Of a stretch of DNA of 20,329 nucleotides, positions 1,113 through 18,325 are shown piece by piece. Origin of the DNA: a virus; IMG/VR virus record IMGVR_UViG_3300017917_004195, positions 1-20,329 of that record. One strand, written 5' to 3'. The position numbers and the translations under genes are program-made. The notes beneath the pieces are model-generated. The model ran no database searches, was not told the origin of the DNA, and worked only from the letters and a program-made list of their open reading frames with translations. Position 1 is the stretch's first letter; every line of letters begins with the position of its first letter.

Positions 1113-1124
1113 CATATATTTATA
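1113..1124 (+). promoter_or_regulatory. Candidate phage promoter, CATATATTTATA
   Basis: Exact copy of the 12-mer CATATATTTATA in the gap between the lipoprotein and the holin-like gene, 24 nt before the ATG at 1149. The same 12-mer occurs at 2834 and 9368 and near-copies precede other genes. It resembles the Bacteroidota -7 element TAnnTTTG (here TATATTTA), and the phage encodes a late sigma factor that could read it. Not experimentally shown. Confidence 0.5.
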
Positions 1125-1148
1125 ATTAACACACAAATCTTATAAATT

Positions 1149-1433
1149 ATGAAAAATGCAATTAAAACCTTCTTTAGCTGGATAGGAGGTATTTTTAAAG
1201 ATGAAAGTGGTAATCCTTCATCTAAACGTTTAGTTGGTATCATTGCTGGTATTACATTATGTATTACAATGTATCATAATAGTTTTACTACAGTTGATAT
1301 AGCACCCGCTGAATATTTAGTTGATGCTGTAGCATTATTGGCATTTGGTTGCCTAGGACTAGCATCAGTAGATAAAATTTTCGGTAAGAAAATTGGCAGT
1401 GAAGAAGTAAAAGATGAAATTCTTAAAAAGTAA
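1149..1433 (+). CDS. Two-TM holin-like membrane protein
   Basis: A 94-aa protein with an amphipathic N-terminus (FFSWIGGIFKDESG), then two hydrophobic segments at about residues 28-43 (VGIIAGITLCITMY) and 57-74 (LVDAVALLAFGCLGLASV), and a charged C-terminal tail (EEVKDEILKK). Small size, two TM helices and a charged tail fit phage holins, which form the membrane lesion that starts lysis. The KRLVGIIAG...LLAFG...DKIFGKK pattern recalls small membrane proteins of Bacteroidota phages that are often labelled holin, from memory rather than from a search. A perfect terminator follows 23 nt after the stop, so this gene ends a transcription unit. No endolysin is in the window, which keeps the holin call tentative. 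Confidence 0.65.
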   Translation: MKNAIKTFFSWIGGIFKDESGNPSSKRLVGIIAGITLCITMYHNSFTTVDIAPAEYLVDAVALLAFGCLGLASVDKIFGKKIGSEEVKDEILKK

Positions 1434-1455
1434 TTATAGTTCAATTTTTTAAATT

Positions 1456-1480
1456 AGGCTTGCGTTTGCAAGCCTTTTTT
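1456..1480 (+). terminator. Rho-independent terminator
   Basis: Perfect 8-bp stem AGGCTTGC / GCAAGCCT (1456-1463 and 1468-1475), 4-nt loop GTTT, then a run of T to 1480. It sits between the holin-like gene and the next gene and is the clearest GC-rich stem followed by a T-run that I saw in the window. It ends the unit containing the protease, lipoprotein and holin-like genes. Confidence 0.9.
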
Positions 1481-1482
1481 AT

Positions 1483-1492
1483 TATCTTTATA
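1483..1492 (+). promoter_or_regulatory. Candidate promoter right after terminator, TATCTTTATA
   Basis: TATCTTTATA differs by one base from the TATATTTATA core of the other sites. It lies just after the terminator and 2 nt before the GTG start at 1495, where a new transcript must begin. TATCTTTA also matches the first seven positions of the Bacteroidota -7 box TAnnTTTG. If used, the mRNA would start at or inside the start codon. Confidence 0.45.
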
Positions 1493-1494
1493 TA

Positions 1495-1692
1495 GTGAAC
1501 TTAACTGATATTAAGCAATTAGAACAATTATTAATAAAGGAGAAAAAGTCTCCATTAGTAGATAATGCTGTAAAAGAATTGTGGATTGTATTAAACAATA
1601 AAGAAAATAAATACACTAAATTCACTACAGATCAAATAATTAATTATTATACTTCTATTTGCCGTTATGAAAATTATTCGAAAAATAACTAA
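1495..1692 (+). CDS. Small protein of unknown function (65 aa, GTG start)
   Basis: A 65-aa helical, Lys/Asn-rich protein (TDIKQLEQLLIKEKKSP at the N-terminus) with no membrane segment. The GTG start is the first possible start after the terminator and directly follows the candidate promoter. No SD sequence is present. The 3' end overlaps a short downstream reading frame (1667-1762) by 26 nt. I recognise no family. Alternative starts further in would shorten it; if the transcript is leaderless, GTG would be unusual, since leaderless mRNAs prefer ATG. Confidence 0.6.
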   Translation: MNLTDIKQLEQLLIKEKKSPLVDNAVKELWIVLNNKENKYTKFTTDQIINYYTSICRYENYSKNN

Positions 1693-1762
1693 TTGGTGGA
1701 AAACATTTGTTAAAAAACATATAATTGACAAATGTCCACCTGAGTTAGATGATATATTTTAG
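1667..1762 (+). CDS. Very small Trp/Lys-rich protein (31 aa)
   Basis: A 31-codon frame starting at ATG 1667 and ending TAG 1760-1762. The product starts MKIIRKITNWWKTFVKK, a basic amphipathic helix with two adjacent Trp, and ends DKCPPELDDIF. It overlaps the preceding gene by 26 nt in another frame and fills a stretch that would otherwise be empty. The charge-and-Trp pattern is like the N-termini of the proteins at 2173 and 2271, which argues that it is translated. Its stop codon lies inside the left arm of the 17-bp inverted repeat. Function unknown; an amphipathic membrane-surface peptide is an inference. Confidence 0.5.
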   Translation: MKIIRKITNWWKTFVKKHIIDKCPPELDDIF

Positions 1763-1772
1763 TAGGCGTTCT
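1756..1772 (+). repeat. Left arm of a 17-bp perfect inverted repeat
   Basis: ATTTTAGTAGGCGTTCT here is the exact reverse complement of 2176-2192. The arm covers the last codons and stop of the 31-aa gene and the start of the leader of the TM-coiled-coil gene. The GC-containing core (GTAGGCGTTC) stands out from the AT-rich surroundings. Confidence 0.9.
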
Positions 1773-1786
1773 TTGAAATAAAAAAT

Positions 1787-1792
1787 AAGGAG
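1787..1792 (+). promoter_or_regulatory. Shine-Dalgarno sequence (unusual here)
   Basis: AAGGAG lies 9 nt before the ATG at 1802. Most genes in the window have only A/T-rich leaders before the start, as is normal in Bacteroidota, so this strong SD is an exception. It supports the start chosen for the TM-coiled-coil gene. Confidence 0.7.
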
Positions 1793-1801
1793 AAATAAAT
1801 T

Positions 1802-2164
1802 ATGGAAACAACATATTTTGTTTTAGGTATGCTCTCGATTATTGGTGTTATTTTTGTAGCATTAATAGTTTGGGGTATAGTTAAGATTAACGAATTGTCA
1901 AAAATAACTAAACAACATGAAGAAGAGATCAGTAACTTAAATCGCACTTTATGGGAAAATCATCATGATTTACGTGAAGATCTAAATCGTAGAATGGACA
2001 ATATGGATCATCATGCTAATGATTATATCAAAGATCTTAATCGCGAGTTGGATTTAAGATTTAAAGACATATGTGATGAAATTGGTCATACTCGCTCATA
2101 TATTGATTCACGTATCGATAAAGCAACAGGCACATTAGGTGCAAAACAAGTAATTAAAGGATAA
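1802..2164 (+). CDS. TM plus coiled-coil protein, possible inner spanin
   Basis: A 120-aa protein with one N-terminal membrane segment (about residues 5-27, including LSIIGVIFVALIVWGIV) followed by a long charged helical region (about 28-105) with heptad-like spacing, rich in Glu, Asp, Arg and His, and a short C-terminal tail. A single N-terminal TM with an extended periplasmic coiled coil is the architecture of phage inner spanins (Rz type), which would pair with a lipoprotein such as the one at 871. The two genes are not nested as in lambda, and other T4-like phages carry similar unassigned membrane coiled-coil proteins, so this stays an inference. It is preceded by the strongest SD in the window and flanked by the 17-bp inverted repeat. 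Confidence 0.75.
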   Translation: METTYFVLGMLSIIGVIFVALIVWGIVKINELSKITKQHEEEISNLNRTLWENHHDLREDLNRRMDNMDHHANDYIKDLNRELDLRFKDICDEIGHTRSYIDSRIDKATGTLGAKQVIKG

Positions 2165-2172
2165 TATTAACC

Positions 2173-2274
2173 ATGAGAACGCCTACTAAAATTAAAAAAA
2201 TTTGGAAGTGGTTATTGGAAGTTCAACAAATAACCTCTGAAATTCAAAGTAAACAAATGTTCGGAAAATTATGA
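2173..2274 (+). CDS. Very small Trp/Lys-rich protein (33 aa)
   Basis: A 33-codon frame beginning MRTPTKIKKIWKWLLEVQQ and ending in TGA that overlaps the next ATG (ATGA at 2271-2274). This 4-nt overlap, also seen at 263, 4318, 4587 and 5678, is strong support for real translation. The N-terminus is a basic amphipathic helix with two Trp, like the 31-aa protein at 1667. Codons 2-7 lie in the right arm of the inverted repeat, so an RNA duplex between the arms would abut its start codon. Function unknown. Confidence 0.55.
   Translation: MRTPTKIKKIWKWLLEVQQITSEIQSKQMFGKL
2176..2192 (+). repeat. Right arm of the 17-bp perfect inverted repeat
   Basis: AGAACGCCTACTAAAAT, the exact reverse complement of 1756-1772, begins immediately after the ATG of the 33-aa gene. 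The two arms are separated by 403 nt that hold just one gene, the TM-coiled-coil protein. Confidence 0.9.
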
Positions 2275-2819
2275 AATATAAATTACAACGAGTATGGGAG
2301 TTATTTAGATATAACCTCCCTGCATTCTTCAGATCACTTTGGGTATTCCGTAAAGCATTATGGAGTTATCGTTGGTATAGTGGTCATCACGGAGTGTTTG
2401 ATTTTATGTCTGCTGCTATAAAGGACATACACACTAATGTAGAAGAACGAGGTATCGAAGAATGGGTATCGAAAGAAAAGAAAGTAGAAGCCATGAAACG
2501 ATTAGTGTACTTGCTTGATATGTTCAATAATGAAACTTTTATTGAAAAAGCGGAGAAAGAACTAGGATTAGAAATGGTATTTCGTAATCGTTTTGTTGCT
2601 CTAGAAGATCGACCCGGTTATTTTGAAATGGTAAATGACCTTACAAAAGAAGAATGTAAAACTAATGAGCGAATATTAAAAAGAGCTCATGATATACAAT
2701 CAAAAGGCTGGAAGGAACTCATTCATTTAATTAATGGACAGGATTATTCTAAATTTAAAAAAGAAATTGATTTCCTAGAACAATTCGATGGATCAGGTAT
2801 TCGTGGATGGTGGGATTAA
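2271..2819 (+). CDS. Conserved-looking phage protein of unknown function (182 aa)
   Basis: A 182-aa protein with a basic, aromatic-rich N-terminus (WELFRYNLPAFFRSLWVF...WSYRWYSGHHG), a helical acidic middle, and a C-terminus ending FDGSGIRGWWD. The closing GWWD with an SG-rich lead-in is reminiscent of unassigned proteins in large myophages, from memory. The aromatic/basic N-terminus could lie on a membrane but is not a clean TM segment. Its ATG overlaps the stop of the 33-aa gene, so the two should be co-translated. No catalytic motif is visible and I give no function. Confidence 0.85.
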   Translation: MKYKLQRVWELFRYNLPAFFRSLWVFRKALWSYRWYSGHHGVFDFMSAAIKDIHTNVEERGIEEWVSKEKKVEAMKRLVYLLDMFNNETFIEKAEKELGLEMVFRNRFVALEDRPGYFEMVNDLTKEECKTNERILKRAHDIQSKGWKELIHLINGQDYSKFKKEIDFLEQFDGSGIRGWWD

Positions 2820-2833
2820 TCTCTTCGAATCCG

Positions 2834-2845
2834 CATATATTTATA
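2834..2845 (+). promoter_or_regulatory. Candidate phage promoter, CATATATTTATA
   Basis: Exact 12-mer copy placed only 4 nt (TACC) before the ATG at 2850. If it is a -10/-7 element, transcription would start within a few bases of the start codon and the mRNA would be leaderless. Confidence 0.55.
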
Positions 2846-2849
2846 TACC

Positions 2850-3281
2850 ATGGATATTAATGATTTGTTTAAGTTATTTTCTGATGAAGACAAGGAATTA
2901 TCTAAAGACAAACCTCCTGTTTTAGATTTTACTGAACATCCTGTATATTGGGTAGGAATGTTTACTAAAATTATTAAAAACCATAAAGGATTTGATTTAT
3001 ATATTAAACAAATTTTCAATAAACTTACCCCAGAACTAGAAGTTGAAATAGAAAAAATGGAAGAACTTGGGGACTGGGTTACTTTTAATAGAGCATGGTA
3101 TTATATAGAAAAAATTGACCTAAACTCAGAATTCCATTATGAACATTTAATATCTAGTGGAACTAAAGATACTTTATTTGCCTTAGAAATAACAATAGCT
3201 CATTTTGAACGTTTTGAAGAATATGAAAAATGTGCACATCTTTATAAAATAAAAAAGGAACTTCAAGATTTTATTAAATAA
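2850..3281 (+). CDS. Protein of unknown function with a UVR-like C-terminal helix pair (143 aa)
   Basis: A 143-aa acidic, helical protein. The N-terminal third is charged (LFSDEDKELSKD), the middle has aromatic residues (HPVYWVGMFTK, WVTFNRAWYYIEK), and the C-terminus (FERFEEYEKCAHLYKIKKEL, about residues 120-139) fits the loose pattern of the UVR/UvrB-UvrC helical hairpin (EEYEkAaxLrxxIxxL). That pattern is common and does not by itself show DNA repair. The start is preceded by a candidate promoter 4 nt away, with no SD. I recognise no family. Confidence 0.8.
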   Translation: MDINDLFKLFSDEDKELSKDKPPVLDFTEHPVYWVGMFTKIIKNHKGFDLYIKQIFNKLTPELEVEIEKMEELGDWVTFNRAWYYIEKIDLNSEFHYEHLISSGTKDTLFALEITIAHFERFEEYEKCAHLYKIKKELQDFIK

Positions 3282-3328
3282 ACTTGGGTTAACTCAACTA
3301 TTACATTACATTAAATACAAAATAATTT

Positions 3329-3526
3329 ATGAAAAACAGAGACACAGTTTTAAAAAAACTAGATTCAATCGAAGCAGGATTAAATGCTTTGCGTTTTATG
3401 GTACAACGTCAAGAACCTGTAACAGATTTTGTTGCTCGAATAGAACAAACCCGTGAGCTTGTAGATCAAGTTAAAGGATACATTGAAAATGAACCTATTG
3501 CTGGAACAGAATTAAACAGAATCTAA
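3329..3526 (+). CDS. Small helical protein of unknown function (65 aa)
   Basis: A 65-aa almost entirely helical protein with heptad-like hydrophobics (VLKKLDSIEAGLNALRFMVQ, then VARIEQTRELVDQVKGYIEN), suggesting a short coiled-coil or helical hairpin that oligomerises. There is no TM segment. It follows a 47-nt spacer without a recognised promoter and lies 18 nt before the HD-domain gene, with an A-rich leader and no SD. Function unknown. Confidence 0.75.
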   Translation: MKNRDTVLKKLDSIEAGLNALRFMVQRQEPVTDFVARIEQTRELVDQVKGYIENEPIAGTELNRI

Positions 3527-3544
3527 AAATAAAAAATAAAAGTT

Positions 3545-4321
3545 ATGAAATTAACAGCAGAAGAAATCCAAAATAATTGGATTGATTTAGAAGAAACCAT
3601 TAAAACATTTATTAGTGAACCTCGCCGCTCACAACTACTTGATTTTTATTCCCAATATTCAGAACGTATTATGATGATGCCTGCATCTCATAAAAAAGAA
3701 TATCATAATGCATTTCCTGGGGGATATGTTGATCACGTACTAAGAGTAATAGATTGTGCTCTTAAATTAAATGATGTTTGGACTGAAATGGGAGTAGATG
3801 ATTCTACTTACACTAAAGAAGAATTAGTATTTGCTGCTTTAAATCATGACTTAGGTAAATTAGGAGATAATGAATATGAATCATATATCCCACAAACTGA
3901 CCAATGGCGTAAAGATAAATTAGGTGAGGATTACACATTTAATAATAAACTTGCATTTGCATCAGTACCAGACAGAGGATTATTTTTACTTCAACAACAT
4001 GGAATTAAGTATACATTCAATGAAATGATTACTATTCAAACTCATGATGGTTTATATGATGAAGGTAATAAAAAATATCTAATGTCATGGTCTCCTGAGC
4101 AAAAACCACGTACTGCTTTACCGTTTATTGTTCACCAAGCAGATTTAATGGCTGCTCGTATTGAATTTGAACGTGAATGGTTACCTAAATTTAAAGAAAA
4201 TACTACTAAGAATTTTAAAATAGATGCTAAACCTTCTTCTGATAAAAAACTTCCTATTAAAACTAAAGCTTTAGGAAGTGTTAAAAGTGAAAGTTTAAAA
4301 AATATGTTAGATAGTTTATGA
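3545..4321 (+). CDS. HD-domain metal-dependent phosphohydrolase
   Basis: A 258-aa protein with a recognisable HD fold. Candidate metal ligands are His64 in GGYVDHVLRV, the signature His101-Asp102 in AALNHDLGKLG, His152 (QQHGIK) and/or His167 (IQTHDG), and Asp200 in VHQADLMAARIE. His54 in EYHNAFPGG precedes the first ligand, as in many HD proteins that begin HHA(F/Y)xGGLxxH. HD enzymes hydrolyse nucleotides, cyclic or signalling nucleotides, or phosphate esters; the substrate cannot be read here. The last 45 residues are Lys/Ser-rich and probably flexible. It overlaps the next gene by 4 nt (ATGA) and stands two genes before the late sigma factor. A dNTPase/nucleotidase or an enzyme degrading a host alarm nucleotide are both possible. 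Confidence 0.85.
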   Translation: MKLTAEEIQNNWIDLEETIKTFISEPRRSQLLDFYSQYSERIMMMPASHKKEYHNAFPGGYVDHVLRVIDCALKLNDVWTEMGVDDSTYTKEELVFAALNHDLGKLGDNEYESYIPQTDQWRKDKLGEDYTFNNKLAFASVPDRGLFLLQQHGIKYTFNEMITIQTHDGLYDEGNKKYLMSWSPEQKPRTALPFIVHQADLMAARIEFEREWLPKFKENTTKNFKIDAKPSSDKKLPIKTKALGSVKSESLKNMLDSL

Positions 4322-4590
4322 TTTGGATAATTACCATATTAAGTTGTTTAGTAATAGTATTAGGATATGCTACTTATAATCTTCTTAAAAAAAACGAACA
4401 AGCAGAAGATATTATAATATCATACGAAAACTATATATCTAATTTAGGTAGTATACTTTCAAAAGCTAGTGATAAATTAAAAGAAATTGATAATAAAGGG
4501 TTATTTGATAGTGACGATGAAATCGGCTGGTTTTTTAAACATGTAAAAGAAATACAGGAAGACCTGAATAACTTTAATCCTAACCGATGA
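4318..4590 (+). CDS. Small membrane-anchored protein of unknown function (90 aa)
   Basis: A 90-aa protein with an N-terminal membrane segment (residues 2-20, IWIITILSCLVIVLGYATY) followed by a helical, acidic domain. That domain carries the pattern KLKEIDNKGLFDSDDEIGWF then FKHVKEIQEDLNNF. A soluble domain of the type LxxVDxxxxFexDDEVGxxF is familiar to me from T4-like marine phages as an unassigned conserved protein (memory, not a search). It overlaps the HD gene and the sigma-factor gene by 4 nt each, so the three are translationally coupled. Function unknown; the TM anchor puts the acidic domain at the membrane. Confidence 0.8.
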   Translation: MIWIITILSCLVIVLGYATYNLLKKNEQAEDIIISYENYISNLGSILSKASDKLKEIDNKGLFDSDDEIGWFFKHVKEIQEDLNNFNPNR

Positions 4591-5300
4591 TGACCTTGCT
4601 AATAGAACCAAAACCAAAAAAGAATACTGTATATTTTACTCAAGATACAGAAAATGCTATTATTTTATATAATAGTACTTTAGATACTGATATAAAAAGT
4701 AAAATTTACCGTGAACGTATTCATTATGCTTTCTTTAAACTAACAGAAAATATTATCCACACTTTTAAGTTTTATTATACTGAAGTAGATAATATTGAGG
4801 ATTTACAGCATGAAGTAATAACATTTTTACTTTCCAAAATCCATTTGTTTAACCCAGAAAAAGGAGCTAAAGCATATTCTTATTTTGGTACTATTGCTAA
4901 ACGTTATCTTATTTTATACAATACTAAAAACTATAAAAAACGTGTAGATTCTGTTCCTGTAGAAGATATAGAACAAGATGAATCCCATTCATATTCACTT
5001 GATGAAAATCTAAAAAATGAATTTCTATCTAATTATATAGATGAATTCGTAACCTATTGTAGTAACAATATATATGATCTTTTTCCTAAAGACTCAGATG
5101 CTCAAATTGCAGATGCTATATTAGAATTATTTCGTAAACGAGAAAATATAGATATTTTTAATAAAAAAGCATTATATATTTACATAAGAGAAATGGTAGA
5201 TGCTAAAACTCCTAAAATAACTAAAATAGCAAATCAATTATATTCTATATTTAAACGTGGATATACTCATAATCTTGAAAATGGGTATATAAAATTCTAA
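4587..5300 (+). CDS. T4 gp55-like late-transcription sigma factor
   Basis: A 237-aa protein matching the T4-type late sigma factor family. Sigma region-2-like signals are NIEDLQHEVITFLLSKI (about 69-85) followed by FNPEKGAKAYSYFGTIAKRY (88-107), the compact equivalent of region 2.1-2.3 with its aromatic DNA-melting residues. The basic stretch NYKKRVDS follows. T4 gp55 is about 185 aa, so this version is longer, with a C-terminal helical part (about 150-230, including IREMVDAKTPKITKIANQLY) that could be a helix-turn-helix-like or coactivator-binding region. In T4, gp55 directs host RNA polymerase to late promoters with the sliding clamp. Its place just before the baseplate genes fits that role. 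Start ATGATG overlaps the preceding stop; either ATG may be used. Confidence 0.85.
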   Translation: MMTLLIEPKPKKNTVYFTQDTENAIILYNSTLDTDIKSKIYRERIHYAFFKLTENIIHTFKFYYTEVDNIEDLQHEVITFLLSKIHLFNPEKGAKAYSYFGTIAKRYLILYNTKNYKKRVDSVPVEDIEQDESHSYSLDENLKNEFLSNYIDEFVTYCSNNIYDLFPKDSDAQIADAILELFRKRENIDIFNKKALYIYIREMVDAKTPKITKIANQLYSIFKRGYTHNLENGYIKF

Positions 5301-5308
5301 TTATATCT

Positions 5309-5318
5309 CATATTTATA
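5309..5318 (+). promoter_or_regulatory. Candidate late promoter before baseplate genes (CATATTTATA)
   Basis: CATATTTATA is the 12-mer of the other sites with one TA step missing; the TATTTATA core at 5311-5318 is kept. It lies in the 30-nt gap between the sigma factor and the first gene of the baseplate block, 12 nt before the ATG at 5331. Confidence 0.5.
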
Positions 5319-5330
5319 TAAAAATATATT

Positions 5331-5681
5331 ATGAGTGCTTTAGAAAATATTATTTTTGGTGATAAAAAATTTTCTGACATACTAGAAGAAATTTATAACA
5401 ACCAAAAGAAAAAAGAAAAACAAATATCTGCTTTAATCTCAGAACTAAAACCTCTTGTTAATGAGATAGGTGATGCTACTTTAATTGTTCCTCTTATTAA
5501 AGAATATATGGAAATAGGAGTTAAAAATGATGAACAACTAATTAAAATGGCTACTATTATTCAACGTGCACTTCAAGCTAATGTAGCCGCTGGTGGAGAT
5601 GGATTTACAATTTCTGAAGAAGAGAAAGCTCAATTATTGTCTGAAATAAATAAACTTGACTCTAAATCCGATAACAAATGA
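5331..5681 (+). CDS. Helical structural or assembly protein next to the hub gene (116 aa)
   Basis: A 116-aa helical protein: IFGDKKFSDILEEIYNNQKK at the N-terminus, a charged KKKEKQ coiled-coil section, then the pattern IGDATLIVPLIKEYMEIGVK and NDEQLIKMATIIQRAL. This pattern is like a small unassigned protein that accompanies hub/spike genes in T4-like marine phages (from memory). It overlaps the gp5-like gene by 4 nt (ATGATG) and probably works with it as a hub component or assembly factor. There is no membrane segment or catalytic motif. Confidence 0.75.
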   Translation: MSALENIIFGDKKFSDILEEIYNNQKKKEKQISALISELKPLVNEIGDATLIVPLIKEYMEIGVKNDEQLIKMATIIQRALQANVAAGGDGFTISEEEKAQLLSEINKLDSKSDNK

Positions 5682-6949
5682 TGCCAGATACTAGAGGTGG
5701 TACCGCAACAATGTCGGATTTCTTAAGAAAAGGTTTTAAAAGCCTTGGAGGAGGAAGATCTGGGATAGGTATAACATCTGTTAGAGTAACAGATATTATT
5801 CTAAATAGTTCCCACCCAAAATATGAAGCATTAGGAAGAGAAGATTCAATAGGAACTATCTTCTTTTCTTCAGTACAATATCCTAATGATTCTAATGCAA
5901 ATTATTATGCTATACCATTATTACCTAATGTCTCTCATTACCCATTAATAAATGAGCTAGTACCAGTTTTAATGCTATCATCACCTAATGTATCAGATAT
6001 AAATAATAGATTAGATAGTAAATTTTATTATTTACCTCCTGTTAATTGTTGGAATAATCCTCATCACAATGCTGTCCCAAGTGATTTATTACTTTCATCA
6101 TTAGAACCTCCCCAAGACTATTCTCTTACAGATATAGGATTTGAAATAAATAAAGGAACAGGTGATTATATTTCTGATGAACCTATTGTAGGAACAACCT
6201 TTACTGAAAAAGATAGAGTTCATCCACTTCAACCATATGAGGGTGATATAATTTATGAAGGAAGATGGGGAAATTCTATAAGATTTGGTTCTACTAGTGA
6301 TGGTGTTCCTCCTCCTAACTGGTCACTTACTCCATCTCCTGCTGGAGATCCTATTACTATTTTTAGAAATGGGCAACCTTCAACAAATGATCTATTAAGT
6401 ATAGATCCTTGGGCTTATATAACAGAAGATATTAATTTAGATAAATCTTCTATATACCTAACAACTACTCAGACTATACCTTTAAAAACATCTACTAATA
6501 ATAGTTCATTTGCTGCTAGTGACGTTAAACCTATACAAATAGATAAATATAACCAACCACAAGTTATCCTTTCATCTGGAAGATTGGTTTTAAATGCTAA
6601 AGATGACTCAATTATCTTAACTACCCCCAATGTTATCCAATTATCAGGTAATGAATCCGTTAATATAAATGGAAATAAACAAGTTACAGTTGCTGCAAAT
6701 AATGTTTATTTAGGAACTAGACAAGCTGATCAACAGCTAATTTTAGGAAATAAATTTATGGGAGATTTTAAACAATTACTAGAACTTTTACAAGATGTGA
6801 GTAATACACTATCTTTATTAGTAGGGGTACCACCTGGTGCTCCTTTAAATCCTAATCTTACATTACAAGCTACAAATTTAGCAGGCAAATGTGCTACTTT
6901 ATCTAGTAATTTAAATAGTTATTTATCTACTACTACTAAAACTTCATAA
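5678..6949 (+). CDS. Baseplate hub/spike protein, gp5-like without lysozyme domain
   Basis: A 423-aa tail-spike/hub protein. Residues about 33-125 look like the N-terminal OB-type beta domain, with conserved-looking elements VRVTDIILNSSHPKY, GTIFFSSVQYPN, and PLINELVPVLM. Then VHPLQPYEGDIIYEGRWGNS (181-200) with IRFGST next is a signature shared with gp5-like proteins of marine T4-like phages (memory). Residues about 294-347 alternate hydrophobic/polar residues with Asn/Gly turns (ILSSGRLVLNAKDDSIIL..., VNINGNKQVTVAANNVYLG), typical of the triple-stranded beta-helix needle of gp5/VgrG trimers. A helical C-terminus (360-423) follows. Between OB part and needle there is no region resembling a T4 lysozyme domain, so cell-wall digestion must come from elsewhere. 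It starts the core baseplate block, 2 nt before the next gene. Confidence 0.85.
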   Translation: MMPDTRGGTATMSDFLRKGFKSLGGGRSGIGITSVRVTDIILNSSHPKYEALGREDSIGTIFFSSVQYPNDSNANYYAIPLLPNVSHYPLINELVPVLMLSSPNVSDINNRLDSKFYYLPPVNCWNNPHHNAVPSDLLLSSLEPPQDYSLTDIGFEINKGTGDYISDEPIVGTTFTEKDRVHPLQPYEGDIIYEGRWGNSIRFGSTSDGVPPPNWSLTPSPAGDPITIFRNGQPSTNDLLSIDPWAYITEDINLDKSSIYLTTTQTIPLKTSTNNSSFAASDVKPIQIDKYNQPQVILSSGRLVLNAKDDSIILTTPNVIQLSGNESVNINGNKQVTVAANNVYLGTRQADQQLILGNKFMGDFKQLLELLQDVSNTLSLLVGVPPGAPLNPNLTLQATNLAGKCATLSSNLNSYLSTTTKTS

Positions 6950-6951
6950 CA

Positions 6952-9366: not shown

Positions 9367-9367
9367 C

Positions 9368-9379
9368 CATATATTTATA
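9368..9379 (+). promoter_or_regulatory. Candidate phage promoter, CATATATTTATA
   Basis: Exact 12-mer copy in the 18-nt gap between two genes of the baseplate block, ending 5 nt before the ATG at 9385. Transcription from it would begin at about the start codon. Confidence 0.55.
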
Positions 9380-9384
9380 ACCGT

Positions 9385-9759
9385 ATGAAAACAGATTTAC
9401 TAAAAAAATTAATTAAAGAAGCAGTACGTGAAGCAATTCAAGAAGAATTAAAAGATATTCTCCTTGAAGCAGTTAAATCACCTAAAACAGTAGTACAAGA
9501 AACATATACTGGAGGAGTACAACCATTTCTAAATCAACCTGTAATGGCTCAACCAAATGGGACTACTGTAAATCATGATCTTAGACGTAATCTAAGAGGT
9601 ATGATTGGAGGTGAGTTTGATACTACTATTACCGCTAATTCATCACATGCTCAACCCGCATATTCTCCACCGCCCGTTAGTACTATAGGTGAAGGATCTA
9701 GTTTACCTGGTGGTGAAGTAAGTTTAGACCAAATAATGGGAATAATGAATGCTAAATAA
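9385..9759 (+). CDS. Small baseplate-region protein with an N-terminal amphipathic helix (124 aa)
   Basis: A 124-aa protein with a long charged amphipathic helix at the N-terminus (LLKKLIKEAVREAIQEELKD, residues 5-24, then ILLEAVK), a Gly/Pro/Asn-rich low-complexity middle (QPFLNQPVMAQPNG, PAYSPPPVS), and a short C-terminal helix (SLDQIMGIMNAK). Two helical ends joined by a flexible linker suggest a connector or assembly peptide that links structural proteins. I do not recognise it as a known T4 baseplate protein. Its stop overlaps the gp25-like start by one base (TAATG), so it is made together with the wedge proteins. Confidence 0.7.
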   Translation: MKTDLLKKLIKEAVREAIQEELKDILLEAVKSPKTVVQETYTGGVQPFLNQPVMAQPNGTTVNHDLRRNLRGMIGGEFDTTITANSSHAQPAYSPPPVSTIGEGSSLPGGEVSLDQIMGIMNAK

Positions 9760-10160
9760 TGGCTATAAGAATACCAAATAAAAATCCCTTAGACCTGAAC
9801 AATAATGTAGCAGTAGGGGTGGCTATTCCTTTTAACCAACCTGCTGTATTTAGATCTACATTTACAACTACAGATCAAGTAAAATCAAATCTAATTAATT
9901 ATATTTTAACTAAAAAAGGAGAAAGGGTTTTTAATGCTAATTTTGGTAGCAATGTTACTGCACTATTATTTAATAACATTACTCCTCAAAACATTAATAC
10001 TCTTGAATCTTCTCTTATAGGAGAAATCCAAACCAATTTCCCCCAAGTACAGATTAAAAGTTTAACTCTTACTCCGAGCTATGATACTAACACAGTATTA
10101 TTAGTTTTTAGCTATTCAATATATAATAACACCCCAGAAACTGTTGAAATAACCTTATAA
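9759..10160 (+). CDS. Baseplate wedge protein, gp25/gpW family
   Basis: A 133-aa protein of the GPW/gp25 family; T4 gp25 is about the same length. The family core is visible: a helix with QVKSNLINYILTKKGERVFN (40-59), the hallmark KKGERxFxxxFGS (52-64) with Glu55, ALLFNNITPQNINTLE, then strands VQIKSLTLTP and VLLVFSYSIYN and a final TVEITL. In T4, gp25 sits at the inner baseplate, where it links the wedge to the sheath and helps trigger contraction. The gp6-like gene follows 2 nt after its stop, the usual order in contractile tails. Confidence 0.93.
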   Translation: MAIRIPNKNPLDLNNNVAVGVAIPFNQPAVFRSTFTTTDQVKSNLINYILTKKGERVFNANFGSNVTALLFNNITPQNINTLESSLIGEIQTNFPQVQIKSLTLTPSYDTNTVLLVFSYSIYNNTPETVEITL

Positions 10161-10162
10161 TA

Positions 10163-12037
10163 ATGGCTGAAAATAAAAATATAAATTATATAAATAAAAC
10201 ATTTGCGGAATTTCAAACTTCCCTTATAGAGTTTACTAAAACATATTTCCCACAAACCTATAATGATTTTACCCCAGCATCACCAGGAATGATGTTTATG
10301 GAGATGGCTTCTTATGTAGGAGATGTTATGGCATTTTATCTTGATAATCAAATTCAAGAAAACTTTATTCAATTTGCTAAACAACAAAATAATTTATATT
10401 CTTTAGCATATCTATTAGGTTATCATCCTCAAGTAACTGGAGTAGCATCAACTAATATTGATATTTATCAACAAGTTCCCGGTCTTTTATCAGGTTCAGT
10501 TTATATTCCTGACTATTCATATACTGTTAAACTACTACAAAACACACAGATAACCTCAGCAAATGTAGGATCTGCAGCTCCGTTTTTAATTCAAGATGAA
10601 GTAGATTTTTCTTTTTCTAGTTCTATGGATCCTACTACTGTTTCCATCTATCAAAAAACAGGAAACGTAGTTGACTATTTTTTACTTAAAAAAACCAGAA
10701 GAGCAATTTCAGCTACAATAAAAACTGCTACATTTAGTTTTGGTGCTCCTGAAAGATTTCAAACTGTTAATATAAATGATTCTAATATAGTTAAAGTTTT
10801 AGATATTATTGATAGTAATGGAAATAAATGGTATGAAGTACCTTATCTTGCTCAAGAAATGGTTTATGACACTATTAAGAATACAAATGTTAATGACCCT
10901 AACTATTATTCTGACGAAGGTAATGTCCCATATTTATTAAGACTAAAAAAGATTCAAAGACGCTTTGTAACCCGTTTTACATCCCCAGGTACAATGCAAC
11001 TTCAATTTGGAGCCGGAATTAATCCTGCTAATAATGATGAAGAAATTATCCCTAATCCTGATAATGTAGGTTTAGGGTTACCATATAAAAGATCACTACT
11101 ACAAACAGCTTTTGCTCCTGCAAACTTCTTATATACAGATACTTATGGAATTGCTCCATATAATACTACTTTAACTGTTAGATATATAGTTGGTGGGGGT
11201 TTATCTTCTAACATAAATGCTGGAGTACTTAATAAAATCCAAAACCCTTCTAACATTAAATTTCTTTCACAAAATTTAGATAGTACCATCACATCATATA
11301 TAGTAAATTCACTTACAGTACTTAACCCCGCAGCAGCTACTGGAGGTAGAGGAGGAGACACAGATGATGAATTAAGACAAAAATCACTTTTAAGTTTTTC
11401 TACCCAATTAAGAAGTGTTACCCAAGATGATTACTTAGTTAGAGCCTTAAGTTTACCATCAGAGTATGGTACAATTGCTAAGGCATATATAGAAGCAGAA
11501 AAACTTTCTAATCTACTTCCTGGCGAAACACCATCTATACTTGATTTATATGTGTTAACATACGATTTAAACAAAAATCTAGTAGGAACATCAGCTGCCC
11601 TAAAACAAAATTTAAAAACTTATTTATCACAATATAGAATTATAAATGATTCTATTAAAATAAGAGATGCATATGTTATTAATATAGGAGTTAATTTTGA
11701 TATAATTGTATTACCTCAATATAATAATAACGAGGTTATTATAAAATGTATTGAAGAACTTAAAAAATATTTTAACATAGATAATTGGCAAATAAATCAA
11801 CCAATAATACTAAGAGACTTATATATAATGCTAGATAGAATAGAAGGAGTTCAAACTGTAAAAAATATTGAAATATATAATAGAAATTCTACTGAATATT
11901 CTTCAAATTATTCAAATTTATCTTACAACATATCTGGGGCTACTAGAAATGGTGTTGTTTACCCATCTTTAGATCCAATGATTTTTGAGATAAAATATCC
12001 TAATACTGATATAAATGGAAGAGTAGTTCCTTTGTAA
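10163..12037 (+). CDS. Baseplate wedge protein, gp6/gpJ family
   Basis: A 624-aa protein, near the length of T4 gp6 (660 aa). The N-terminus has the T4-type signature DFTPASPGMMFMEMASYVGD (about 35-54) leading into VMAFYLDNQIQEN. The middle has GGRGGDTDDELRQKSLLSFS and DDYLVRALSLPSEYGTIAKA (about 393-440), the baseplate-J core. The C-terminus has the wing-like region IKIRDAYVINIGVNFDIIVL and QPIILRDLYIMLDRIEGVQT. Two copies of gp6 with one gp7-like subunit form the wedge triplex of the inner baseplate ring in T4, and here the likely partner is the 1590-aa protein at 13532. A 34-nt gap with a candidate promoter follows. Confidence 0.92.
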   Translation: MAENKNINYINKTFAEFQTSLIEFTKTYFPQTYNDFTPASPGMMFMEMASYVGDVMAFYLDNQIQENFIQFAKQQNNLYSLAYLLGYHPQVTGVASTNIDIYQQVPGLLSGSVYIPDYSYTVKLLQNTQITSANVGSAAPFLIQDEVDFSFSSSMDPTTVSIYQKTGNVVDYFLLKKTRRAISATIKTATFSFGAPERFQTVNINDSNIVKVLDIIDSNGNKWYEVPYLAQEMVYDTIKNTNVNDPNYYSDEGNVPYLLRLKKIQRRFVTRFTSPGTMQLQFGAGINPANNDEEIIPNPDNVGLGLPYKRSLLQTAFAPANFLYTDTYGIAPYNTTLTVRYIVGGGLSSNINAGVLNKIQNPSNIKFLSQNLDSTITSYIVNSLTVLNPAAATGGRGGDTDDELRQKSLLSFSTQLRSVTQDDYLVRALSLPSEYGTIAKAYIEAEKLSNLLPGETPSILDLYVLTYDLNKNLVGTSAALKQNLKTYLSQYRIINDSIKIRDAYVINIGVNFDIIVLPQYNNNEVIIKCIEELKKYFNIDNWQINQPIILRDLYIMLDRIEGVQTVKNIEIYNRNSTEYSSNYSNLSYNISGATRNGVVYPSLDPMIFEIKYPNTDINGRVVPL

Positions 12038-12053
12038 AATAATTTTATAAGTT

Positions 12054-12063
12054 TATATTTATA
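12054..12063 (+). promoter_or_regulatory. Candidate phage promoter, TATATTTATA
   Basis: The 10-bp core of the 12-mer, with TT in place of the leading CA, lies 8 nt before the ATG at 12072. It is in the only sizeable gap (34 nt) between 9385 and 18304, again just before a gene that does not overlap its neighbour. Confidence 0.5.
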
Positions 12064-12071
12064 ATAAAAAA

Positions 12072-13184: not shown

Positions 13185-13528
13185 TGGAAACATATAATCT
13201 AAATAAAAAACTATATGGTAAAATTTCTTATGAAAATGTTATAAATACATCTATAACACAACTTCAACCCCCTCCTTTACCACAAACTAATACAATTACT
13301 GTAGAAGAATTTTTTAATTATTATCAAACTTTATTTTATGAAATTCCAAAAGAAGGAGAAATAAATTCACATAGGTTTTTAGTAGAACAAAGTGGACAAT
13401 ACATTGGAGATGCACAAATAACAACAGATGTACAGGCTTTACTTGATGAAATAACATCATTAAGACAAAATTTACTTGCTGCTAATCAACAACTATTAGA
13501 CACTCAAATGTCATCGAGTATAATATAA
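13184..13528 (+). CDS. Small coiled-coil protein of the baseplate block (114 aa)
   Basis: A 114-aa protein with a Pro-rich segment (QPPPLPQTN, about 28-36), a folded-looking middle (ITVEEFFNYYQTLFYEIPKE, then HRFLVEQSGQYIG), and a C-terminal coiled coil (QALLDEITSLRQNLLAANQQ, about 84-103). The start overlaps the preceding stop (TAATG), and the 1590-aa gene begins 3 nt after its stop. The design suggests a trimerising or connector subunit associated with the large wedge protein. I do not recognise the family. Confidence 0.75.
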   Translation: METYNLNKKLYGKISYENVINTSITQLQPPPLPQTNTITVEEFFNYYQTLFYEIPKEGEINSHRFLVEQSGQYIGDAQITTDVQALLDEITSLRQNLLAANQQLLDTQMSSSII

Positions 13529-13531
13529 CAT

Positions 13532-16500
13532 ATGGGATTAATTTTATTACCAAATACCTCACTTACCCAAGTATCCCCTACGCAGGAATACTCTCCTTCA
13601 GATATTTCTCTTATCCAAGGGATAGATGTTGGATCAACTTTTAACCCTCAAACAGATTATATAGAATTTACTATATCTACTCTTAATGGATCATACCAAG
13701 TAACAAACATACCATATTCTAACTATACTCTCCCTTCATCAACTACTCCTAACTCAGTTGTAGGAATAGATGTAGAGCAAGATCTTATAAACGCAGGTTT
13801 TACCACAGGTCAATATACAGTATTATATAATTTTTTAAGACCTATTCTTAATTCTTCATATAGTAATCAAATTTACTATGTAAAAGAAATATCTTCTGAT
13901 AGAACTGAAGTAAGACTTTCAAGTCAACAAATGGGGAACACCTCATTAATAAATTCTATTAATGCTTATATAAATCAAAGAAATAATTCCCCATATTTTT
14001 ATGATTTTTATTTAGATTTTGGTAATAATGTTTTATGTGTATCAAATAATATAATATTAGATACTACTACTTCTCCACCTTCTATTCTTATCAATCTTTA
14101 TGACCCATTACCTAACTCAGTTAGATTAAATGATACTTTGTGGATTGTAGAAACAGTTGCAGACCCTCTTTCATATCAAGCAGAATTTATTCCTGAAGTA
14201 GTAGCCTTTACCCCTATTGTAAATCAAATTCAAGGACCTAATTTTAATCTTTCTTTACAAGACCAAATAAATAATTCGTCTAACTATACTAACTACGCTC
14301 AACTAACATCAGTTGGTTTATCTTCTTCTTTTTATCAAATTAGTAGTTTGTTAGAAGAAAAAGGAATAGAAATTAATATAGATTATGATGATTTCTCTAA
14401 TTTTATTCACTTTTCCTCAGCTACTCAAAGATTAAAAAATTTTCAATATAAAGTTGAACTTTTAGAACAATACGCTGAAGAAATTGCAATTCTTAGTGAA
14501 ACAGCTGCTTCTACCTCAGCAGGTGATATATTAACTTTAGAAAATAAAATAAATAATGTCATAACTAATTTTGATGGGTATGATTATTTTTTATATTACA
14601 ATTCTGGTTCGGCATATAGTTGGCCTAAACAAACTCAAACACCTCCATATTCTCTATACCCATCAGATGATCCAATTGTTTTAACATGGTTAGGAAGTGA
14701 TGAATTATCTTCTCCTTATTTTGGAGGAGTTTTACTAAGTGCTTCTATATATGACCAAAACAACCAGGACTATCTTTACAACACTGTTCCTGAGTATATA
14801 AGAGATGATTCTAATAATAATCCCTACAGACTATTCATAGAAATGATTGGTCAGATGTTTGACAATGTGTGGATTTATTATAAAGACGTAACCAATCTTC
14901 ATTCAGCAGATAATAGATTAGATTATGGTATTTCTAAAGATTTAGTAGCAGAAGCACTAAAATCATTTGGTGTAAAAATCTATCAAAATAATTTTTCTAC
15001 TAATGATTTATATAATGCATTTTTAGGGTACTATGCATCTTCAGCATCATTAGAAGATCCTAGTAGTAATGTGTATGTAGTAAATAACTATATTGATAAT
15101 TATTTTATAAATGATGCTATATATATTCCTCAATCATGTGAATATATAACAAATTATATAAGTGCTTCATTTGAAGCTTTAATATCCCCCACTGATGATG
15201 TAAACAAAGAAATATATAAACGTTTATATCACAATTTACCATATTTATTAAAAACCAAAGGTACTATACCTGGCCTAAGAGCTCTCATCAACTGCTATGG
15301 AATACCAGATACTATATTAAGAATCAGTGAGTTTGGAGGAAGAGACAAAGAGATTTCAACTTATGATTATTATTACCAAAGATATAGTAAAGCATTTACT
15401 CCCTCAAATAGTGCTTCTATATTAATCCCTTGGCTACCATTATACAGAAATTATTTAGAAGCATTTAATGATTTTTATGTATGGCCAGTAGGGTATGTAG
15501 CTCCTGTTAATTTTGATAATTTAGATTATATACAAGAAAGTTCTAGTATTCTTTATACAGTCCCTGATTGTATTCAATTTAGATTTAAAACTACAGGAAT
15601 ACCCCCACAGTCACATTATTCTCAATCTCTTTTACTTAAAATTACCACAGGTAGTGTTGTTGATGATCCTAGCAATAACCAATATGTAGTAAATAATTAT
15701 ATTGATAATTATTTTATTAGTGATATAGCATTTGAAAGTGGATCTTCAAATTGGGACATGGGTATTTTCTTATATTATACAGGATCTGGAACAGAGTATA
15801 ATGGAAATGCATATTATCCTAATTATCAATATGGTAATTTAAGATTTTATCTATCTGGTTCTTCAGCAGAAGGAGGATTTGCAGTTTCTGAAGATATATA
15901 TTTGCCGTTTTTTGATGGGGGATGGTGGAGTGTAATGCTACAAAGAAATGTTCATGCTTCTTCATCACAAAACTCAGATAATGTAACTTATACATTGTAT
16001 GCTGCAAATAAAATTTATAACGGTTATGATGGAGATACTATAGGATACATAGGTTCATCAAGCATATATGTTGATGGTTCCACATCTAGTTCATTAAACG
16101 CAGCTTGGAATCATTATGAACCTCAAGGTTATTTAGCACTAAATGAAGGTATTTTCCTTGGAGGATTTATCTCCGGAGCTATGGTAGATAACAGCTATAT
16201 CCAATCCCCAGGAGTATTATTTACTGGATCATTACAGGAATTTAGATATTATGCATATGCTTTAGATGAAAAAATATTTAAAGATTATACAATGAACCCT
16301 GAATCTATTGAAGGAATTCATCTCACAGGTTCATTAAGTTCATTTGATATTTTAAATTTTAGAGCTCCATTAGGAAATGAATTAGGAGAAGATTTTGTTT
16401 ATTCCCAAAGTGGATCTACTATATATGATCTTTACTCTTCTATTCACCCTGCATCTACAGCTTCTGCCAATACACTAATTACAGAATCATTTATATTACC

Positions 16501-18304
16501 AATTTCAACATTTGTTAATTTTAGTGCTAATAATACTAGTTCTGCATATAATACTTTAAATAATACTACGTATACTAATGTATATAATGGACTTAACATG
16601 GTTGCTAACACAAGTGGACCATATTTGTCTTGGAATGCAACTAATGGAACAGTATATGTAAATGATACATGTTTAGGAGGATATGGAGATTTTACAGTTG
16701 AAGGTACTTTAGATGATCCTTTATCTAGTACCTATAGCGTTTATTTTGTTTTATCATCTTCTGTAAGAGGTGAAATAGAATCTTATACCCTCCCAGTTAC
16801 TTCACCTCAAGGTTTTGTATTTTCATTTGATACTGTAGATATATACAATGGAGAAATAATTTCAATATGGGCAAGTAGTTCTATAAATAACGTAGAATTA
16901 ACTCCTGCTAGTTTATATGGATTATCAATAGAAGAACTTAACATATATGGTGTTACTAGATTAAATAACTATCAAATTTTATATTACTCTTCTTCATTTA
17001 CTGCATCTCATACAGAAAACCAAACAGAAGAATATTATTTTGATCAACCAATTGCTGGTATAAGAAATAGAGTAACTGAAAAAATTAATATTGAGTCTAC
17101 TCCTCTCCCATATGTTAATATGTTTATAACAGAGTCTTGGAATTTACTTTCTCAATATACTCAATTAACAAATCAAAATTATCCTTCTCTTAGTAGTGAA
17201 ATTCCTAATGTTAATCTATTAGAAGTAGCATTCTCTCCTCAAAATGAAATTGATGATGATATTATTGCTTCTTTAGGATATTTTAATATAGGTGAATTTA
17301 TTGGAGATCCAAGATATGTTTCTTCTTCTAACACTACATATGTTGACTTAGATAAATTAAAAGAAGATTATTTTAAAAAATATTTTAGTCAATATACTTT
17401 ATATGATTACATAAGATTAATTAAATTTTATGATAATTCATTATTTAAAATGATTAAAGATTTTGTTCCTGCAAGAACAGATCTTATAACAGGTATAGTT
17501 GTAAAATCTCCTTTATTAGAAAGAAATAGATACCCACAACCTCAAGTAGATTATGAAGATGTAACATACTCTGGATCTATTGATACCGCGTTTATAAGTG
17601 GAAGTACTGGGGGAGTATTTAATCCATATAATGTGTTAGTAGATGATGCATATTTTAACACTACTCCACAAATATATACTTTTTCAACAACAACCGTTAA
17701 CCCATTTTTAGGAACAACCGCTACCTCAAGTGGTGATTACCTCATCTGGATACCAGAAACTGGTGAAATAATGACTAATTTTTATGGAATAGTTAAATTT
17801 CAAACATCTGGGCTTGTAGGTAGTAGTGGTACTACATATATAGGATACACATCCTCTATTCATGGACCTCTAGAATCATTTACTGACATCAACTCAGTTA
17901 CTTCATATTATAGTTGTTCATACGGAGAAAGATTTACAGTTTCTGTAGCAAGTGATGCTCTTTGGTTACCAATATATAATCTAACTTTTAGATCTAATAC
18001 AGTAGTACCGTTCTCAAACCAAGCATGGTATGAATCAACTATTGGCCCATCAGGTTCTACCCAGTTTTTGAATATCACTCAAGAAGAATTTTATGATGGA
18101 GAATTTTCAGGTAGTATCGTAGAAGTTACCAATGGTAATTTAGGAATAGGAAACCCATTTCTTTACCCAAACCCATCAGGATTTAATTTTGATGTGGTTT
18201 TATACCGTCAATACCCATCAAATATTACCCCTCCTCCAGATTTCTTAAATAGTAATACTTCCCCAAATCAAGGAGAATTATATTTATGGTTTGGATTTGC
18301 TTAA
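13532..18304 (+). CDS. Giant baseplate wedge protein, gp7/gpI-like with LamG-like domain (1590 aa)
   Basis: The largest gene of the window. Residues about 425-500 and 545-610 (RLFIEMIGQMFDNVWIYYKD, DVNKEIYKRLYHNLPYLLKT, GTIPGLRALINCYGIPDTIL) resemble the helical core of P2 gpI/T4 gp7-type proteins, the third member of the wedge triplex with gp6. Residues about 735-925 look like a LamG/concanavalin-type beta-sandwich (GGFAVSEDIYLPFFDGGWWS, then FTGSLQEFRYYAYALDEKIF). Further beta-rich Ser/Thr/Asn repeats lie at 980-1150, a helical connector (LDKLKEDYFKKYFSQYTLYD, about 1271-1290) and a final beta domain follow. A 22-residue sequence occurs at 509-530 and again at 712-733. T4 gp7 is about 1030 aa, so this protein has extra, probably surface-exposed domains that may bind host glycans. 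The gpI/gp7 assignment is a pattern judgement. Confidence 0.75.
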   Translation: MGLILLPNTSLTQVSPTQEYSPSDISLIQGIDVGSTFNPQTDYIEFTISTLNGSYQVTNIPYSNYTLPSSTTPNSVVGIDVEQDLINAGFTTGQYTVLYNFLRPILNSSYSNQIYYVKEISSDRTEVRLSSQQMGNTSLINSINAYINQRNNSPYFYDFYLDFGNNVLCVSNNIILDTTTSPPSILINLYDPLPNSVRLNDTLWIVETVADPLSYQAEFIPEVVAFTPIVNQIQGPNFNLSLQDQINNSSNYTNYAQLTSVGLSSSFYQISSLLEEKGIEINIDYDDFSNFIHFSSATQRLKNFQYKVELLEQYAEEIAILSETAASTSAGDILTLENKINNVITNFDGYDYFLYYNSGSAYSWPKQTQTPPYSLYPSDDPIVLTWLGSDELSSPYFGGVLLSASIYDQNNQDYLYNTVPEYIRDDSNNNPYRLFIEMIGQMFDNVWIYYKDVTNLHSADNRLDYGISKDLVAEALKSFGVKIYQNNFSTNDLYNAFLGYYASSASLEDPSSNVYVVNNYIDNYFINDAIYIPQSCEYITNYISASFEALISPTDDVNKEIYKRLYHNLPYLLKTKGTIPGLRALINCYGIPDTILRISEFGGRDKEISTYDYYYQRYSKAFTPSNSASILIPWLPLYRNYLEAFNDFYVWPVGYVAPVNFDNLDYIQESSSILYTVPDCIQFRFKTTGIPPQSHYSQSLLLKITTGSVVDDPSNNQYVVNNYIDNYFISDIAFESGSSNWDMGIFLYYTGSGTEYNGNAYYPNYQYGNLRFYLSGSSAEGGFAVSEDIYLPFFDGGWWSVMLQRNVHASSSQNSDNVTYTLYAANKIYNGYDGDTIGYIGSSSIYVDGSTSSSLNAAWNHYEPQGYLALNEGIFLGGFISGAMVDNSYIQSPGVLFTGSLQEFRYYAYALDEKIFKDYTMNPESIEGIHLTGSLSSFDILNFRAPLGNELGEDFVYSQSGSTIYDLYSSIHPASTASANTLITESFILPISTFVNFSANNTSSAYNTLNNTTYTNVYNGLNMVANTSGPYLSWNATNGTVYVNDTCLGGYGDFTVEGTLDDPLSSTYSVYFVLSSSVRGEIESYTLPVTSPQGFVFSFDTVDIYNGEIISIWASSSINNVELTPASLYGLSIEELNIYGVTRLNNYQILYYSSSFTASHTENQTEEYYFDQPIAGIRNRVTEKINIESTPLPYVNMFITESWNLLSQYTQLTNQNYPSLSSEIPNVNLLEVAFSPQNEIDDDIIASLGYFNIGEFIGDPRYVSSSNTTYVDLDKLKEDYFKKYFSQYTLYDYIRLIKFYDNSLFKMIKDFVPARTDLITGIVVKSPLLERNRYPQPQVDYEDVTYSGSIDTAFISGSTGGVFNPYNVLVDDAYFNTTPQIYTFSTTTVNPFLGTTATSSGDYLIWIPETGEIMTNFYGIVKFQTSGLVGSSGTTYIGYTSSIHGPLESFTDINSVTSYYSCSYGERFTVSVASDALWLPIYNLTFRSNTVVPFSNQAWYESTIGPSGSTQFLNITQEEFYDGEFSGSIVEVTNGNLGIGNPFLYPNPSGFNFDVVLYRQYPSNITPPPDFLNSNTSPNQGELYLWFGFA
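15056..15120 (+). repeat. In-frame repeat, copy 1 (partly palindromic)
   Basis: Codes for DPSSNVYVVNNYIDNYFIND. A 35-nt core (15074-15108) matches copy 2 with a single mismatch. The core holds an inverted repeat (15082-15091 with 15096-15105, loop ATTG) with one C-A mismatch. Confidence 0.85.
15665..15729 (+). repeat. In-frame repeat, copy 2 (perfect hairpin)
   Basis: Codes for DPSNNQYVVNNYIDNYFISD, 203 codons after copy 1 and in the same reading frame. It contains a perfect 10-bp hairpin, AAATAATTAT / ATAATTATTT (15691-15700 and 15705-15714) with loop ATTG. Confidence 0.85.
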
Positions 18305-18310
18305 AAATTT

Positions 18311-18321
18311 CATATATTATA
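18311..18321 (+). promoter_or_regulatory. Candidate phage promoter, CATATATTATA
   Basis: The 12-mer with one T missing (CATATATTATA), in the 21-nt gap before the last gene and 4 nt before its ATG at 18326. A forward TATAAATA, the T4 late consensus, also lies at 18318-18325 immediately before the ATG, so this site is ambiguous. Confidence 0.45.
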
Positions 18322-18325
18322 AATA

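Follow-up and report, generated by a model that had tools for sequence, protein, structure and literature searches.

A candidate late promoter of T4-like Bacteroidota phages and the gp55-like sigma factor that may read it

The closest described counterpart of the element discussed here is the late promoter of phage T4, which is read by the phage sigma factor gp55 and has the box TATAAATA at positions -13 to -6 (PMC1524935). Variants of this box occur in KVP40, 44RR, and S-PM2, and CTAAATA in Aeh1, which provides a precedent for a diverged gp55 together with a diverged box (PMC1524935); T4 late transcription also requires the sliding clamp gp45 (PMC2988020). The other system for comparison is the sigma-A promoter of the Bacteroidota, with TTTG at -33 and TAHHTTTG at -7: the -7 element of Flavobacterium johnsoniae carries T(-12), A(-11), T(-8), T(-7), T(-6), and G(-5), and transcription starts 4 or 5 nucleotides (nt) past the element (PMC6847099). 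For a late-promoter motif of Bacteroidota phages, we found nothing relevant in open-licence full-text papers. Here we describe a short element, the late box, in a 20,329-base stretch of DNA (the window) that is the entire IMG/VR fragment IMGVR_UViG_3300017917_004195 and derives from a T4-like phage, more precisely from its virion module. Judging from sequence comparison, the box, [A/C]TATTTATA(A), is probably the late promoter of a large T4-like clade of phages of Bacteroidota (mainly Flavobacteriia) and would be read by a phage-encoded gp55-like sigma factor.

The late box shares with the T4 late promoter its form, one short TATA-like box in the -10 region with no -35 or -33 element, and its place ahead of late virion genes. 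TATTTATA has the same base as TATAAATA at 6 of 8 positions, the central AA having changed to TT, and it is neither TATAAATA nor a described near variant of it; TATAAATA[TG] is hardly found upstream of genes in the phages tested (consensus from PMC1524935). Both T4 and this clade encode a small sigma factor with a domain-2 match and have two-part, host-type promoters elsewhere in the genome. The late box would work like a T4 late promoter, yet the case departs from T4 in that the TATAAATA sequence is absent and no gp45-type clamp was detected.

Placement of the late box in the window and its relatives

The window encodes a head maturation protease and gp25-like and gp6-like baseplate wedge proteins (PHROG matches), and the two wedge genes (9759..12037, + strand), which have no box of their own, put it in the late virion module. 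Using the gp6-like protein as query, we found 594 relatives, 80 of which were kept, for a total of 863 kb including the window; near-identical phage records were sought and none was found. Genes of the relatives were called as simple ATG-based open reading frames (ORFs), gene families are single-linkage clusters, and gene timing (late, early, or middle) was taken from gene function. The kept loci have genes in common, and to obtain independent tests we therefore turned to long sequences: the complete genome of Flavobacterium phage vB_FspM_immuto (Immutovirus; 160 kb; hereafter immuto) and four long contigs of 147, 102, 59, and 40 kb. Immuto and the uncultivated relatives have the same virion module as the window (gp6-like protein 44% identical) and the same late box, but immuto differs in having C or A at the first base, longer gaps between box and start codon (mostly 10-25 nt), and a stronger second promoter class.

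The raw count of the box in the window is not above chance (23 one-mismatch matches against 23.35 in dinucleotide shuffles), so the case for it rests on position, strand, and relatives. K-mer enrichment picks out the core ATATTTATA, present in 121 upstream windows where 0.56 are expected; the whole unit is the 9-mer [A/C]TATTTATA, usually with an extra A after it, and the information around it is limited to about 14 bp. Across the window and its 80 relatives, upstream windows of 50 nt (43 kb in all) contain TATATTTATA 33 times, compared to 4 occurrences in 813 kb of coding DNA, and the reverse complement is absent upstream. The sequence-only reading, an earlier annotation of this DNA, had proposed counting the box upstream of genes against shuffled sequence in the genome and its relatives, and strong upstream enrichment appears in every long relative: the density of [AC]TATTTATA is 75-293 fold higher upstream than in coding DNA, in the sense orientation only, and the upstream excess per genome has p values from 1e-16 to 1e-31. 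In 11 records, every exact match to ATATTTATAA lies on one strand, that of the gene direction. Antisense sequence and shuffles served as controls, since ATATTTATA is a mirror string and a reversed-pattern control is useless. After clustering, the box stands ahead of 63 unrelated gene families at gaps of 3 to 43 nt, with one at 1 nt, a variation that is promoter-like and unlike a translation signal held at a fixed distance.

Within the window, exact copies of CATATATTTATA lie on the + strand at 1113-1124, 2834-2845, and 9368-9379, and exact TATATTTATA at 1115, 2836, 9370, and 12054, all on the + strand, all intergenic, and none in the coding DNA of the window. Conservation of each site was judged on all orthologues of the downstream gene, box-bearing or not, with the window itself counted. 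It is strongest at the site at 9368 (core 9371-9379), 5 nt before the ATG of a small virion-module gene of 124 amino acids (aa; 9385..9759, + strand): the box is found in 63 of 68 orthologues, where shuffling predicts 2.25, and 61 of these 63 boxes sit 3-5 nt before the ATG. The equivalent gene of immuto has the variant CTATTTATT 3 nt before its ATG. A box CATATTTATA at 5309..5318 (core 5310-5318, + strand), 12 nt before ATG 5331, recurs in 26 of 37 orthologues (1.4 expected), and the box TATATTTATA at 12054..12063 (core 12055-12063, + strand), 8 nt before ATG 12072, in 14 of 82 (0.55 expected). The site at 2834 (core 2837-2845), 4 nt before ATG 2850, is matched in 3 of 19 orthologues, at 3, 4, and 6 nt, and the site at 1113 (core 1116-1124), 24 nt before ATG 1149, in 2 of 4; in one relative (G001), the box is 21 nt ahead of the orthologue of gene 1149. 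The sites at 2834 and 9368 are predicted to give near-leaderless mRNA.

Two further sites on the + strand are doubtful. TATCTTTATA at 1483..1492 lies on the T-run of a terminator-like hairpin and precedes a GTG-initiated ORF with no clear orthologue; the site has no orthologue support, and CATATATTATA at 18311..18321 is the core minus one T, with a full box in none of the 9 orthologues, the window included. The sequence-only reading had listed all seven sites as copies or variants of one element. On re-checking, its three exact copies (1113, 2834, and 9368) and its variants at 1483, 5309, and 18311 are correctly placed, the gaps to the start codon are indeed 2, 4, 4, 5, 8, 12, and 24 nt, and an exact search agrees that no exact copy falls in coding DNA; some orthologues have a box in the same place as those at 1113, 2834, 5309, 9368, and 12054, which does not hold for 1483 and 18311. 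Its observation that overlapping genes have no box also extends to the relatives, as genes abutting their neighbour lack one throughout (0 of 76 orthologues for gene 9759, 0 of 82 for 10163, and 0 of 57 for 13184). Upstream of gene 1802, the window has GTTCTTTGA-like and AGGAG-like stretches, seemingly common to positions 1752 and 3068 of two relatives (L034 and L047, respectively), which are possibly another control element.

The gp55-like sigma factor

The candidate late sigma factor is a protein of 237 aa (4587..5300, + strand) consisting of sigma region 2 plus a C-terminal domain. Its gene is present in every relative that spans the locus, with 62-75% identity among close relatives and 43-44% in immuto (protein immuto26A_153). 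Pfam Sigma70_r2 matches 23 of the 25 sigma family members (best 3.5e-5), the late sigma factor family PHROG 234 matches 21 of the 25 weakly (best 4.6e-4), and an hhalign comparison with a profile of nine gp55 proteins gives 94% probability over 93 columns. That the window encodes a gp55-like sigma, as had been claimed from the sequence, is thus borne out at the level of domain-2 homology, by the hhalign match and weakly by PHROG 234. A single T4 gp55 did not match the sigma profile, only the nine-member gp55 profile doing so, and a search of PDB sequences with the sigma profile found nothing.

The C-terminal part of the protein sets it apart, as the C-terminal domain is longer than that of gp55 and the last 90 residues of the protein, with an invariant KKA.YI.IRE, have no gp55 counterpart in the hhalign alignment; this domain could be a region-4-like or an activator-contact domain. 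Between residues of about 144 and 232, the conserved KKA.YI.IRE is followed by T.KITKIA..LY..FK. The AlphaFold model of the whole protein has a mean pLDDT of 71.

Two putative promoter classes and the gene modules they mark

A de novo motif search in immuto returned first a motif different from the late box, TTCNTATATTTAGG. The sites with this motif, the second class (48, mostly in immuto and the relative G002), have the form TTG-N20-TATATT, with TTC upstream of TATATT and the TTG at one fixed offset in 88%. This is like the -33/-7 layout of Bacteroidota sigma-A promoters, with TTG kept near -33, but the second class has TTTAG or TTCACG where the host has a strict TTTG and thus does not follow the host consensus either. 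Ahead of the late box, in the 63 families, TTG is at background at every upstream offset, so that no -33/-35 element is seen.

Gene modules distinguish the two classes in immuto: the two virion blocks contain 17 of 26 late boxes compared to 1 of 26 second-class sites (Fisher p=4e-6), and the other 25 second-class sites mark genes outside these blocks. Among immuto genes with an upstream gap of at least 14 nt, a late box precedes 15 of 26 virion genes versus 7 of 72 others, and a second-class site 1 of 26 virion genes versus 22 of 72 others. The genes for terminase, gp20-like portal, sheath, and tape measure are preceded by late boxes. Late boxes of immuto include those at 117605, 118991, 120596, 122478, 131295, 145345, 146992, 150774, and 153827. 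Going by gene content, the second class presumably serves early or middle genes.

Second-class sites can also be written as TTG-N16-TTCNTATATT followed by AGG or CACG, ahead of non-virion genes (L081 and L082 of immuto; L073/G002), with example stretches at immuto 60950-76210 and G002 52820-69365. Several are nested with terminator-like hairpins, the -33 TTG lying in the left arm of a stem of 9-10 bp and the T-run often running into TTCNTATATT (immuto 22069, 25489, 33322, 46501, 64499, 67962, and 160363; G002 67462 and 68219); stems of at least 5 bp occur at 8 of 27 immuto second-class sites versus 9% in shuffles. There are also hybrid sites, TTC[AG]TATATTTATA, in which the second-class TTC is joined to a late box (immuto 149754 and 128566; window 1111), and at 149754 a TTG additionally occupies the -33 position, so both systems may act on some genes.

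Taken as a mechanism, host RNA polymerase carrying the phage gp55-like sigma would read a single -10-type box with no -33 element, and transcripts of virion and lysis genes would start a few bases past it; the other genes, presumably early or middle, would use a two-part promoter made of TTG near -33 plus TTCNTATATT. The proposal of a late promoter in the sequence-only reading survives in this form, favoured by the upstream enrichment, the restriction to the sense strand, the bias to virion genes, the lack of a -33 box, and the gp55-like sigma encoded nearby, with its views on host -7 style and leaderless transcripts holding only in part.

Several observations weigh against the late box being a promoter read by this sigma. 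Foldseek with the sigma model gave no match under 0.001, although many of its best matches are sigma factors, and we infer the pairing of sigma and box only from homology and co-occurrence. No gp45-type clamp (PF02916) was found in immuto, G001, or G002, where the T4 control scores 2.9e-35, and no DnaN-type clamp was detectable in the same three; activation by a gp45 sliding clamp, a feature of the gp55 family, is therefore not seen here, and immuto also differs from T4 in encoding a family A DNA polymerase. As T4 needs gp45 and none is detected here, activation must differ or use an unrecognised clamp. In immuto, 9 of 26 late boxes lie outside both virion blocks. Intrinsic terminators show no enrichment ahead of the boxes (6 of 63 versus 10 of 148, p=0.57), and terminators directly upstream were rejected as an independent sign of transcript starts. 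Finally, two distant phages with a related sigma, LR756508 and Mel-JY01, have no box in the 50 kb covered of each, and motifs found de novo there do no better than shuffles. Mel-JY01 (PP395634, labelled a Microcystis phage; locus L105) has 12 exact copies of the Bacteroidota sigma-A-type TTG-N20-TATATTTG against 1 of the reversed pattern and groups with immuto by its gp6-like protein (44% to the window) and its sigma; its host label may be wrong.

Predicted start sites and leaders, and alternative explanations

If the box is a promoter, the conserved gaps bear on where transcripts would begin. When TATATTTATA is aligned to the F. johnsoniae element, transcription would begin with the third or fourth base past the box, and leaders of about 0-3 nt would follow from gaps of 3-5 nt; with T4 spacing, transcripts from gaps of 3-4 nt would be cut within the AUG, which speaks against that spacing at those genes if these starts are used. 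The observed floor of the gap is 3 nt, and the median gap is 5 nt or less in 11 of 63 families. At gene 9385, an in-frame upstream start is present in 0 of 68 orthologues, and another ATG, GTG, or TTG within codons 2-20 in only 15 of 68. The 3-5 nt gaps of this gene favour host-like spacing, and near-leaderless mRNA at a minority of late genes, those with the box 3-5 nt before the ATG, is plausible; this holds only if the boxes are promoters and these start codons are the ones used. For most families, the implied leaders are roughly 8-30 nt, so leaderless transcription is not the general rule, and the idea that the box gives leaderless mRNAs fits the geometry of the 11 families but not that of the majority. 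In Flavobacterium psychrophilum, the leaderless share is 5.5% (PMC9723704). A more specific version, in which a gp55-like sigma without a gp45-type clamp reads TATTTATA, the exact reverse complement of TATAAATA, at host -7 spacing, leaving a conserved late subset essentially leaderless in hosts that do not use Shine-Dalgarno pairing, is one we offer tentatively, as its chances fall somewhat short of even.

The most serious alternative is that the box is a variant host sigma-A -7 element favoured at late genes, with the phage sigma uninvolved. The core of the box, TATATTTA, is similar to TAnnTTTG, and a minimum gap of 3 nt agrees with host -7 spacing (PMC6847099), so that the late box and the host promoter have in common a T-rich -7 core, TATATTT, and the predicted start spacing. 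They differ in that the late box has A at the near-invariant G(-5) (consensus from PMC6847099), an added TATA(A), and no -33 TTG, which the host-like second class keeps. As a host control we used 163 kb of a Winogradskyella metagenome-assembled genome, in the assembly of which one contig encodes a sigma of 69% identity; this host link is weak, as a phage contig may be co-binned. There, the upstream regions of genes are enriched 12-fold in TAHHTTTG (p=4e-21) but not in the late box (1 site, p=0.38); each of the phages has 0-1 TAHHTTTG sites upstream of genes. Having no -33 element and no signal in a flavobacterial genome, the late box is very probably neither chance nor a host promoter, and the separation of the two classes by gene module also argues against the host sigma-A explanation, which we consider unlikely. 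The related suggestion that the box has moved toward the host -7 style stands for the T-rich core, but not for the base at the G(-5) position or for the phages' use of TAHHTTTG.

Alternatively, the box could function at the RNA level before late genes, either enhancing translation initiation or marking a site of mRNA processing. It lies near start codons, and translation in Bacteroidota relies on A-rich bases upstream rather than on Shine-Dalgarno pairing (PMC6847099), but the spread of the gap from 3 to 43 nt across families, the lack of a box at overlapping or abutting genes such as 9759 and 10163, and the bias to one module make this quite improbable. Still less credible is a leftward reading, in which the functional element is the reverse complement, a T4-type TATAAATA that makes antisense RNA. 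The exact reverse complementarity of TATTTATA and TATAAATA and the occurrence of T4 late transcripts of either polarity (PMC2988020) invite it; we reject it because 859 of 868 ORFs run rightward, so that leftward starts would serve almost no gene, because placement is tied to downstream ATGs, and because the opposite orientation is hardly found upstream. Least probable of all is a composition artefact of AT-rich intergenic DNA, or plain chance, which accounts for the raw window count but not for the position of the boxes, their strong strand asymmetry, the orthologues of gene 9385, or the lack of enrichment when the same method is applied to a flavobacterial genome.

Promoters of Bacteroidota phages are almost unmapped, and a precise late box and a separable second class can now be given for one clade of these phages. 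This clade is very common and uncultivated except for one member, immuto, whose growth on Flavobacterium sp. LMO8 allows both classes to be tested. In metagenomic contigs, the late box can further serve to delimit operons and mark the lineage. More broadly, the hosts of this clade have an unusual polymerase and do not use Shine-Dalgarno pairing, and a late sigma of the T4 type may have been adapted to them, apparently dispensing with the clamp by which T4 activates late transcription.

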